A stretch of DNA of 34,938 nucleotides from Gemmatimonadota bacterium (GTDB lineage: Bacteria > Gemmatimonadota > Gemmatimonadetes > Gemmatimonadales > GWC2-71-9): NCBI GenBank assembly GCA_025357945.1, contig JANYLJ010000057.1:1-34938 (forward strand). Direction: 5' to 3'. Under the pieces are notes generated by a model. The model did no database searches, was not told where the DNA came from, and saw only the letters and a list, made by a program, of their open reading frames with translations. This document shows positions 2,216 through 6,574 of the stretch, piece by piece; position 1 is the first letter of the stretch, and each line of letters begins with the position of its first letter. The translations under genes and the position numbers were made by a program.

Positions 2216-3340
2216 TCAGCTGGAACGCACCACCGAGGCGACCAGCGTGGCAATCTCCGCGTCGAACACGGTTCCGGCACACTCCTCGACGTACAGCACG
2301 ACACGATCCGTCGGCCATCCGGCCCGGAGTGGACGCGGAGCACGCAACGCGGCGAAGGCGGCACAACATGCGACCAGGCGACTCGCCCAGTGCGGCGTTG
2401 GACTGAACCGCCGGGTGGGATAGCCGTTCCCGTCCGGCCGCAGGTGATGCTCGAAGGCGACGACCGCCGCGAGTTCGGAACCCACGCCACCGTGCCGCAA
2501 CAGCAGCTCCGCGCCTGACACGGTGTGAGCCTCGACTGCGGTGCGCTCCGCGTCGGTGAGGCTCTCCTTGGTGGCGAGTTCGGGTGGGAGCCGGACCATG
2601 CCGATATCGTGCAGCAAGGCGACCACCCCGATCTGGTGACGCCCCACCCCGTCAACGCCGACGGCGCCCGCCGCGGTCATCGCGAGCAACGCCGTGTTCA
2701 CCGGGTGCACCAGGTGATAGCGGCCCGCATAGTCGAGGTGGGCCGCCTGCGGCAGCTGATGCGGATCGACCAGTGCAACGAGGATTCGCACCACCGCCTC
2801 CGCTTCGGCTCGCGCCACGACTCCGCGAGCGGCCTCCGCCAGAATAAACTGCATCGCGGCGAGTTCGTCCGTGAGGTCGAGCCGCAGCCTCGCTTCCGAG
2901 TCACCGAGTGGCTCCGCCGGCTCGGCGGCAGACAGGTCGCCCTGACCCTGCACCGCGACGACGCCGAAGACGACCCCCGGGATCGGCGTCACTTCATCGC
3001 GTGACGGTTGCCCGGTGTTGAGCCTTGTCGTCAGCCGTTCGACAAGCCGCACGAGCGAGTCCAACGTCAGCGCCGAATCGAATTCGAGGCGCTGGACACC
3101 AATCGCGGCGAGGCGCGCGCTGTGGTGCCACTCGCGCAACTCGTGCAGCGCCCGCCCGGCATAGACCGGCGCAGTGCCCAGAAAGAGAAACACCGGGTGC
3201 GGGTCGGTGGCGAGCAACGCCGTGGCGGCCCGCCAGAGATGCTCGAGGCTTCGCCTCGTCGCCGGATGGCCGGGCGCGTACAGTGTGCTCGCGGAAAGGG
3301 TCTGGGCCAGCGCGTGAAGGAATCGGATCGCATCGCTCAT
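2216..3340 (-). CDS. HD-GYP-type phosphohydrolase domain protein
   Basis: The 374-residue protein has a C-terminal HD domain of HD-GYP type. Visible metal/active-site residues are His212 (HPVNTALL), His244-Asp245 (ALLHDIGMVRLP), His272 (EAHTVSG) and His298-His299. Next comes RPDGNGYP, where the canonical GxGYP is DGNGYP, so the GYP signature survives. HD-GYP proteins hydrolyse cyclic di-GMP; related ones cleave other cyclic dinucleotides, so the activity is probable, not proven. Residues about 1-110 form a separate module with LYAPGHPATRRSLEHL that resembles the N-terminus of the upstream HEAT gene product. No receiver or membrane segment is seen. The ATG overlaps the upstream stop by four bases (ATGA), so the two proteins are probably made together. 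Confidence 0.82.
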   Translation of the reverse strand: MSDAIRFLHALAQTLSASTLYAPGHPATRRSLEHLWRAATALLATDPHPVFLFLGTAPVYAGRALHELREWHHSARLAAIGVQRLEFDSALTLDSLVRLVERLTTRLNTGQPSRDEVTPIPGVVFGVVAVQGQGDLSAAEPAEPLGDSEARLRLDLTDELAAMQFILAEAARGVVARAEAEAVVRILVALVDPHQLPQAAHLDYAGRYHLVHPVNTALLAMTAAGAVGVDGVGRHQIGVVALLHDIGMVRLPPELATKESLTDAERTAVEAHTVSGAELLLRHGGVGSELAAVVAFEHHLRPDGNGYPTRRFSPTPHWASRLVACCAAFAALRAPRPLRAGWPTDRVVLYVEECAGTVFDAEIATLVASVVRSS

Positions 3341-5277
3341 CCGGCAGATCCGATCGCGCCCCGCACTTCGGGATCAGTCGACGCGGCGACGAGTTGCATC
3401 ACGGCCACCACCGGCCCCTCCGTGCGCCAGCGGCGGGCGAGCAGCTCGAGCGCGGCCAGCATCACCGGCGACTTCGGCCGCAGACGGACGCGGCGGAACA
3501 CACCGCGGCGTGCTCGCACAAGCGGAAGCAATCTGGCCACAATCAGCGGGCTGTCGCTCTCTGCCAGCGCCCGGATCGCCTGTACCGGAAGCGCCGGTTC
3601 GGGATGATCGAGCACGGCGAGCACCGCCGCCACGAGTTGCGGCGGGCAATCGCCTCCCAATGCGGTGAGCGCCATGCGTACCAGCGATTCCTCGCCGCTC
3701 ACGAGCGCCTGGGCGATGGCGCGATCGCGGGCCGGGCGCTGCCGAACGAGCACCTTGAGCGCCTCCTGCCGCACGCGTACCTCCGGGTCCGACAAGGCCG
3801 TGAACACCGGCTCGACATTCGCGATGGCGGAGAACTGCGCCAATACCGCGAGGATGTTGCGCGCCAGGTACCACGGCGCCCCCTCCAGGCGAGCGAGTAG
3901 CGTGGCCTCGGCCCCCGGCCCGATCCGCACCAGGATATCGAGAAGGCGGCGACGGGCAGTGCGCTCCGTTGCCGCGGCGAGGGCGTCGAGCAGGTGGCCC
4001 AGAGCGGCCGATCCGATGTGCGCGGCGACGCGCTCGATCAGAGCGAAGTCGGTGGCCGGCTCGGCAACCAACTTCTCGATCAGGGCCGGACCGAGAATGG
4101 CGTCGCGCACGGTGTGCGCTGTTCCGGAATCGTTGCGCGAATCGTCGATCAACTGCAATGCCTCGACGAGCCGCTGCGCATCCGCAAGGCGGCACGCTGC
4201 GCCGATGACGCCGGCAGACGGCACGCCGACTTCGAGCCCGAGCGCGAGCACCCGTGCCGGATCTACGCCGACATGCGCGTCGGCAGCTTCGTCTACCTCA
4301 TCGCTGACACCATCCCACTGCTGCACGAGTCCAAGCACCTGCATCGCGAACCCGCCATCAGCCGCCCCGATATCTATCGCTTCCCCGCCAGCGAGCTTCC
4401 CAAGCAACGAGCGGAGCGGAGCGGAGATCGGCTTATCATCGGCCTCCGCGACCGATTCGAGCAGCTGGATCAGGAGCGCCGGTGGCACCAGCTCGAGGGC
4501 ATCGGTGAGGAAGCGACGGCGCGACGCAGATGACGGCGCCGCCGACACGACGCGGGTAGTGGTCGGTCGCGACAGTGCCGAGAGCAGCTCGACAAATCGG
4601 TGGCGCGCACCACCCGCAACATGCCCTTCCCGCCCCGCCAGCGCGGCCGCGAACGTCGCGAGCGCCTCATAGACCTGTTTGGCACCATCGGCGCCGCGGG
4701 CAGCCCGCTCCGAGATGGCGTCGGCGAGTTGCGGAACCGTCGGCGCTGCGTCGCTGCCAGCCATCTGACGATCGAACGCTGCTTCGGCCAGTGTCGTCCA
4801 GAACGCTTCATCGAGCTCGTGTTCGGCCGTCGTACCGCCGAGTGCGAGCGCATCGTAGGTCATCGGCACGACGCGCGCGTGCTCCAGGTGCAGCCCGTCG
4901 CGGCCCACCGTTTCGTCGGCGTCGCTCGCCGCCAACGCGGCGAGCACGGCGGCCAGCTCAGCGGCGGTCACCCCGCGGCGAAGTTGGATAACGGCGATGT
5001 TCTTCCGGTGTATCCGCGCCGCGAACTCGCGCAGGACGCCGGGGAGCGGATCCGCCGCCATTCCGTCGAGCAGCAAGCCGTGCGGCAGGATGCTGATGGT
5101 GAGGGAATCCCGGTCGGCCATCGCAACGTCAAGCCGATCGATCAGCGACGCGGCACTTTCGGAAATGAACCGGTGGCCGGGCGGATATATCGCGACCTTG
5201 CCGAGTGCGTTGACGAACTCGCGCAGGACGGCGTCGACCGCGCGCGGCACCGGGATGCCGTGGGTGTCGCCGCTCAC
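3337..5277 (-). CDS. HEAT-repeat protein with YPPGH N-terminal module
   Basis: The 646-residue soluble protein starts at GTG (5277). The N-terminal part (about 10-125) contains IYPPGHRFISESAASLIDRL, LPHGLLLDGMA, a FAARIHRKNIAVIQL strand and GVTAAELAAVLAAL. This parallels the N-terminus of the downstream HD-GYP protein. The middle is Ala-rich and helical. The last about 200 residues are tandem helical HEAT-like repeats, for example NVEPVFTALSDPEVRVRQEA and PQLVAAVLAVLDHPEPALPV. HEAT arrays are protein-binding scaffolds; no catalytic motif is visible. The gene begins 22 bases after the icd stop and ends in a 4-base overlap with the HD-GYP gene, suggesting icd-HEAT-HD-GYP co-transcription. Function is unknown. 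Confidence 0.78.
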   Translation of the reverse strand: MSGDTHGIPVPRAVDAVLREFVNALGKVAIYPPGHRFISESAASLIDRLDVAMADRDSLTISILPHGLLLDGMAADPLPGVLREFAARIHRKNIAVIQLRRGVTAAELAAVLAALAASDADETVGRDGLHLEHARVVPMTYDALALGGTTAEHELDEAFWTTLAEAAFDRQMAGSDAAPTVPQLADAISERAARGADGAKQVYEALATFAAALAGREGHVAGGARHRFVELLSALSRPTTTRVVSAAPSSASRRRFLTDALELVPPALLIQLLESVAEADDKPISAPLRSLLGKLAGGEAIDIGAADGGFAMQVLGLVQQWDGVSDEVDEAADAHVGVDPARVLALGLEVGVPSAGVIGAACRLADAQRLVEALQLIDDSRNDSGTAHTVRDAILGPALIEKLVAEPATDFALIERVAAHIGSAALGHLLDALAAATERTARRRLLDILVRIGPGAEATLLARLEGAPWYLARNILAVLAQFSAIANVEPVFTALSDPEVRVRQEALKVLVRQRPARDRAIAQALVSGEESLVRMALTALGGDCPPQLVAAVLAVLDHPEPALPVQAIRALAESDSPLIVARLLPLVRARRGVFRRVRLRPKSPVMLAALELLARRWRTEGPVVAVMQLVAASTDPEVRGAIGSAG

Positions 5278-5299: not shown

Positions 5300-6574
5300 T
5301 CAGCCCGTCTTGCTCATGTTCTCCACCATGGCGCGCCCGAAGGCACTGGTGGAGAGCTTCGTGGCTCCTGCCATAAGGCGCTCGAAGTCGTAGGTCACCC
5401 GCTTCTGCGCGATCGTCGCGGCCAGCGATCGGACGATCAGGTCGGCTGCTTCGTGCCAGCCGAGGTGGTGCAGCATCATTTCACCCGACAGGATCAGCGA
5501 GCCGGGGTTTACCATGTCCTTCCCGGCGTACTTGGGTGCCGTCCCATGGGTCGCCTCGAAGACCGCGTGACCGGACACGTAGTTGATGTTCGCGCCCGGC
5601 GCGATGCCGATGCCGCCAACCTGGGCAGCGAGCGCATCCGAGATGTAGTCGCCGTTGAGGTTGAGCGTTGCCAGCACGTCGTAGTCACGCGGGCGGGTCA
5701 GCACCTGCTGCAGCATCGCGTCGGCGATGACGTCCTTGATCACGATGCCGTTTGGCAGCACCAGCCAGGGCCCGCCGTCGAACTCGGTGGCACCGAATTC
5801 GTCGCGCGCGAGCTGGTAACCCCAGTCGCGGAAGCCACCCTCGGTGAACTTCATGATGTTGCCCTTGTGCACCAGCGTCACGTTCTTGCGGCCGAGATCG
5901 ATGGCGTACTGGATCGCGGCGCGAATCAGCCGCTTGGAGCCCTCCTCCGATACCGGCTTGATGCCGATCGCACTCGAGCCAGGGAAACGGATCGCGGTAA
6001 CACCCATTTCGTTTTGCAGGAAGGCGATCAACTTCCTGGCGTCGTCGCTGTACGCGGCGTATTCAATGCCGGCATAGATGTCTTCGGTATTCTCGCGAAA
6101 AATCACCATGTCGACCGCACCGGGATCCTTGACCGGCGAAGGCACCCCGGTGAACCAGCGCACCGGACGCACACAGGCGTACAGGTCGAGCTGCTGGCGC
6201 AGCGTCACATTGAGTGAGCGGAAGCCGCCACCGACCGGGGTGGTCAGCGGCCCCTTGATGGCCACCAGATAGTGCCTGATCGCCATCAGGGTGTCGTCCG
6301 GCAACCAGGAGTCGAACTTCGCCTTCGATTTCTCGCCGGCATACACCTCGAACCATGCGAGCCGACGCTTCCCGCCGTAGGCGACCCGCACGGCGCCATC
6401 GAGCACGTGCCGCGTCGCGGCCCAGATGTCGGGGCCGGTACCATCACCTTCGATGAACGGGATGATCGGTGCGCCGGGAACCTGCAACGTGCCACCGGCG
6501 AAGGTGATCGCTTCGCCGTCGGTCGGCGACTTGAGCTGCTGGAAGACGGGGGGAGTGGCAGTGTTGCTGGGCAT
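5300..6574 (-). CDS. icd: NADP-dependent isocitrate dehydrogenase
   Basis: The 424-residue enzyme oxidises isocitrate to 2-oxoglutarate in the TCA cycle, in the cytoplasm. Substrate-site residues are intact: RSLNVTLRQ (119-127) with the serine phosphorylated by AceK in E. coli (Ser120 here), CVRPVR, the ENTEDIYAG loop with its tyrosine, Lys237 in [11 protein letters not shown], and NGDYISD (about 307-313). [11 protein letters not shown] (343-353) carries the Lys-Tyr pair that marks NADP rather than NAD use. Length and full-length similarity match the E. coli type. The ATG lacks a Shine-Dalgarno and has TATTAT six bases upstream. It is followed closely by the HEAT/HD-GYP genes and preceded by an inverted repeat. 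Confidence 0.96.

Follow-up and report, generated by a model that had tools for sequence, protein, structure and literature searches.

The window analysed here, a 34,938-nucleotide stretch of a contig from a Gemmatimonadota genome (3.0 Mb in 75 contigs), carries on its minus strand two tightly coupled genes. The first encodes a HEAT-repeat protein of 646 amino acids (positions 3337-5277, GTG start) and the second an HD-GYP protein of 374 amino acids (2216-3340). The two share four bases (ATGA), and the HEAT gene starts 22 bases after the end of the isocitrate dehydrogenase gene icd (5300-6574, same strand; Pfam Iso_dh, E 9e-90), which we treat as context outside the system. Both spacings, taken from the open reading frame coordinates, are as given in the initial annotation, and its HEAT and HD-GYP domain assignments are upheld by Pfam (HEAT_2, E 5.7e-8; HD_5, E 2.4e-13 and HD, E 1.4e-7). 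HEAT_2 scored above the Pfam cut-off in two stretches of the HEAT protein, and this, together with an AlphaFold model that is all helices from about residue 150 onward (mean pLDDT 86 for the whole protein), identifies tandem HEAT repeats. Foldseek matched this protein, at low TM-scores, to HEAT/ARM scaffolds, among them importins and the PP2A A subunit. The HD-GYP domain spans residues 201-364 (2249-2740, minus strand), and the profile of its family aligns to PmGH (PDB 4mcw) with an E-value of 1.1e-49. No strong membrane segment was found in either protein, the best 19-residue hydropathy mean being 1.6 in the HD-GYP protein and 1.7 in the HEAT protein.

Both proteins begin with a related module, at residues 1-132 of the HD-GYP protein (2945-3340, minus strand; well-aligned core about 1-110) and at about residues 11-124 of the HEAT protein (4906-5247, minus strand). 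Direct pairwise alignment of the two N-termini was not significant (local score 36; shuffled sequences averaged 31 with an s.d. of 5, and 174 of 1,000 did at least as well), so profiles were needed. When one profile per N-terminus (69 and 39 rows) was built and the two were compared with hhalign, 110 columns aligned with probabilities of 99.2-99.4% and E-values of 1.5e-19 to 3.4e-21, the former for the HEAT-protein module against the HD-side module; the controls, namely the HEAT module in reverse, four regions from elsewhere in the HEAT protein and the HD-GYP domain, gave E-values of 0.06 or worse. Individual profile searches agreed, with the HEAT-protein module being picked up at E 1.4e-15 by the profile from the HD side and at E 4.9e-33 by that from the HEAT side, and the HD-GYP-protein module giving a profile match at E 1.0e-29. 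The two N-terminal domains are thus homologous, in line with the similarity that the initial annotation had noted in the sequence. One detail of that proposal fails: the 'HR/HS' motif said to be common to both is out of register, as the HR of the HEAT protein lies opposite AA in the profile alignment, a few residues past the HS of the HD-GYP protein.

Structure predictions of each protein, made with AlphaFold on single chains, place the elements of both modules in the same order, ααββαβαβ. In the HD-GYP protein (mean pLDDT 90 for the module) these are helices 3-20 and 26-45, strands 50-54 and 57-60, helix 72-79, strand 84-87, helix 93-109 and strand 123-126; in the HEAT protein they are helices 12-30 and 36-52, strands 58-64, 67-70 and 73-75, helix 80-91, strand 94-100, helix 105-116 and strand 134-138. 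The module matched no model in Pfam or NCBIfam, had no convincing Pfam match in any of 33 members and had nothing convincing among PDB sequences. Comparison with PDB folds gave a best Foldseek E-value of 0.41 and a best VIA Z of 6.9 with an r.m.s.d. of 6.0 over 69 residues; a known fold may still lie behind such a missing match. The row with Z 6.9, EmrAB-TolC, was dismissed as the fold of the module because it covers 69 residues at 6 Å r.m.s.d. Neither module alignment contains an invariant column, and no ligand-site signature was apparent.

To assess the conservation of the pair, we searched with each protein independently. The HEAT protein was present in 44 of 61 relatives, and in each of the 30 loci taken from that search (L007-L036) the HEAT gene is followed immediately by an HD gene. 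Searching with the HD-GYP protein recovered 40 loci, 35 of which have a module-bearing gene directly upstream, usually overlapping; in the other five, the HEAT gene is split over two frames (L043) or the locus lies near a contig edge (L048, L053, L069 and L071). These 40 loci are on contigs titled Gemmatimonadetes, Acidobacteria, Omnitrophota, Aminicenantes, Acidimicrobiia and other Actinomycetota, Nitrospirae, Hebobacteria and others. Within the order to which the window belongs, the module was found in 36 of 37 near-complete genomes, and 123 of the 146 module matches in those 36 genomes form same-strand pairs 1.4-2.2 kb apart. At least one pair occurs in 35 of the 37 (35 of the 36 with the module), and most of these 35 have two, with the HEAT gene first and the genes mostly overlapping. 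Across the phylum, 220 of 297 genomes carry the module; beyond Gemmatimonadota, counts are based on the loci and on 12 genomes reached through them, all 12 of which contain it. The pair singled out in the initial annotation is therefore kept far past the genus, both in nearly every near-complete genome of the order and on contigs of several other phyla.

A tree built from 66 modules splits the HD-side from the HEAT-side copies, one long-branch row apart, and shows matching lineage subgroups within each half, although the fork between the two groups has modest support (75/88). This arrangement suggests one old duplication, after which the two copies would have been inherited as a pair. Module divergences also correlate between partners: across 23 loci, the divergence of one module tracks that of the other (rho 0.52) more closely than either tracks the other domain of its own protein (0.33 and 0.28). 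The partial correlation of the module divergences is 0.46, a value as high as which was seen in 0 of 2,000 permutations, with the proviso that these figures derive from 23 loci and raw distances and that permutation tests on matrices can make such a result look more significant than it is. Given the small sample and lenient test, we regard this covariation as suggestive of direct contact, and as the best sequence evidence for it here. Conservation, tree groups and covariation together favour a complex of long standing that has been inherited as a unit and was probably assembled by pairing of the two domains.

We compared the residues of the HD-GYP domain across 71 homologues and with the characterized mutants of PmGH (PMC4159591). 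The protein in the window has the hallmarks of the HD-GYP family (HD dyad, downstream histidines and GYP), keeping H212, H244, D245, H272, H298, H299 and GYP at 306-308. At the positions of PmGH D183, K225, D305 and D308, however, it has G206, M248, A327 and A330, and thus lacks all four of the residues that mark an active enzyme of the PmGH kind. Comparable losses extend across the genus: in all eight genomes with the gene, the K225 equivalent is M, the D305 equivalent is A or S and the D308 equivalent is A, V, I or T. One genus member, L014, also has a single H-to-Q change among the otherwise kept histidines. By contrast, K225 is kept in 58, D305 in 59 and D308 in 62 of the 63 other sequences, and, apart from E185, usually replaced by Y, the PmGH residues are present in most homologues of the pair.

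In PmGH, the substitutions K225A, D308A and D183A abolish or nearly abolish activity, and D305A strongly lowers it while leaving some (PMC4159591). As the equivalents of all four residues are changed in the window, the label of cyclic-dinucleotide phosphodiesterase in the initial annotation is probably wrong for this protein, although some activity is possible given that the metal-binding histidines are retained. The label suits most of the family, whose HD-GYP half is predicted from its residues to be an active phosphodiesterase in most lineages, and is doubtful for the window and its genus, where important residues close to the metal centre, the K225, D305 and D308 equivalents among them, have changed. 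Here the HD-GYP half probably serves as a non-catalytic sensor of c-di-GMP, predicted to bind the nucleotide without cleaving it. Comparable residue losses in a retained pair were also seen in L019, L031 and L051/L054, and partial losses in L015 and L063, the last of which has lost the GYP motif too. L019 is the first of two tandem HEAT/HD-GYP pairs (G057:C146:27219-33161), and its degenerate HD-GYP site has H221 replaced by R and K225 by M (PmGH numbering).

The genome of the window encodes a second HEAT/HD-GYP pair on another contig (L077:7968-11263, contig C38), near trpC/trpF-like and trpD-like genes. The HD-GYP protein of this paralogous pair keeps all of the PmGH residues except E185, including D183, K225, D305 and D308, and both members of the pair group with Nitrospirota pairs in the module tree. 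Judging from these residues, the intact C38 pair could still carry out hydrolysis in the same genome. Among the other HD-GYP proteins found in this genome, none but the C38 protein carries the module, and there was no HEAT-protein match at the remaining loci. Six GGDEF matches above the Pfam cut-off indicate that the organism probably makes c-di-GMP.

The gene icd lies directly upstream of the pair only in loci of the genus, and we rejected it as a functional clue because neighbours vary by lineage. Elsewhere, the neighbours include tryptophan-like genes, Tat-like genes, a LuxR-type response regulator and a PilZ gene. No general functional theme emerged among neighbours across lineages, and, because they differ in this way, no target could be guessed. 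At one locus, L076, the pair is preceded at a distance of 74 bases by a PilZ-domain gene (L076:5161-5835) and followed 26 bases downstream, on the other strand, by a gene for a Ras-like (MglA-like) GTPase (L076:8971-9996); these neighbours suggest a link to c-di-GMP and perhaps to cell polarity or motility.

Each half of the pair resembles known proteins. PmGH (PDB 4mcw/4mdz/4me4) shares the HD-GYP domain with the same motif order, but it has a different N-terminal domain, whereas the pair has the unnamed module and a HEAT neighbour with the same module; the genus protein has, in addition, lost several of the key residues. Other bacterial HEAT-repeat proteins (Pfam HEAT_2 / HEAT_PBS) have similar C-terminal HEAT repeats; the protein in the window differs from them in a module that it has in common with the downstream HD-GYP protein and that is not in Pfam or NCBIfam. 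A precedent for a non-cleaving HD-GYP domain is DvhD of Desulfovibrio vulgaris, a degenerate HD-GYP receptor that binds c-di-GMP without cleaving it (PMC13090378), and a degenerate domain of this type can therefore serve as a c-di-GMP receptor. DvhD itself sits in the membrane, carries dCache and PAS domains, no longer has its HD and HH motifs and functions within an adhesin operon (PMC13090378). The protein in the window likewise lacks key cleavage residues and may, by analogy, bind c-di-GMP, but it keeps HD and HH, has no evident membrane segment and has a HEAT partner. The initial annotation knew of no described system of this form, and we too found no description of the HEAT/HD-GYP pair in the literature searched, which omits most subscription journals, so an earlier account is possible. 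HD-GYP and HEAT proteins are each well known; their unnamed common domain and the persistence of the gene pair across several phyla point to an undescribed two-protein signalling unit.

Our preferred reading, to which we assign about an even chance, is that a HEAT scaffold and an HD-GYP c-di-GMP protein form an old co-inherited pair whose modules associate as a heteromer, and that the HD-GYP protein of this genus acts as a non-cleaving sensor. The two modules would bind each other to give a HEAT/HD-GYP complex, and the HEAT arm would present the HD-GYP domain to a target or relay its state to that target. In the genus of the window, the HD-GYP half would sense c-di-GMP without cleavage, with the C38 pair performing hydrolysis. 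That the HEAT protein docks on its HD-GYP partner by way of the module, the role first proposed for it, would fit the coupling of the genes, the partner-specific groups and the partial correlation of divergences, although the two proteins could instead make contact through other parts. The fuller picture, in which a two-protein c-di-GMP unit present in many bacterial phyla was built through paralogous copies of a new domain and the genus enzyme became a non-catalytic receptor on a HEAT scaffold, we put forward tentatively, as possible rather than probable.

The same module in the two proteins might alternatively be a ligand sensor that each uses separately, delivering the same input to HD-GYP and HEAT outputs, with the proteins unbound and the operon matching their amounts. 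In its favour, HD-GYP proteins often carry a sensory domain at the N-terminus, some HEAT-type proteins with the module have no HD-GYP gene next to them, and no structural match marks the module as a dimerisation fold. We nevertheless consider separate sensing unlikely, though a serious alternative, as the modules are old, distinct, partner-specific paralogues, with a covariation of divergences that exceeds that seen for the rest of the proteins, and as neither alignment has an invariant column that would mark a ligand site.

Two further explanations concern the altered active site. The HD-GYP protein in the window might still be catalytically active as a phosphodiesterase, perhaps on a different substrate or with its metals arranged differently, and be regulated by the HEAT protein. 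The simultaneous loss of the D183, K225 and D308 equivalents, each of which alone (nearly) abolishes PmGH activity when changed, and the fixation of the K225, D305 and D308 losses in all eight genus members with the gene make this improbable, even with the metal-binding histidines, HD dyad and GYP in place and with the residual activity of PmGH D305A in mind (PMC4159591). Far less probable still is that the pair is functionless here and the HD-GYP gene is becoming a pseudogene. Changed active-site residues and a second, intact pair on another contig might be expected in that case, but neither reading frame is broken, the coupling is tight and identity among the genus members recovered is about 47-62%, and the histidines and GYP persist with the single exception in L014. 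Binding between the two modules, with a non-cleaving HD-GYP half in this genus, remains the reading that we favour.

HD-GYP proteins are a main class of c-di-GMP hydrolases and, to our knowledge, few of them have a known route to their targets. A tightly conserved partner gene with a common domain offers a directly testable hypothesis for HD-GYP assembly and targeting. The pair occurs in several phyla that offer few genetic model organisms or none, and its members provide a natural series of active and inactivated HD-GYP versions.

Several module-bearing loci have unusual settings. One pair, L049, is on a contig titled Thermoplasmatales archaeon, which is probably a bacterial contig in the wrong bin. 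Two acidobacterial loci have an extra module-bearing frame beside the pair: an ORF of 132 amino acids with little beyond the module (L042:1281-1676), and an open frame of 512 amino acids that is truncated by the contig end and has no Pfam match (L043:9329-10864). HEAT-type module proteins with no adjacent HD-GYP gene in the 3.4-4 kb examined were found at L078:785-2338, L079:551-2233, L080:865-2535 and L081:1522-3147, with the module being weak in L080 and L081; these four are perhaps orphan partners of an HD-GYP protein encoded elsewhere.
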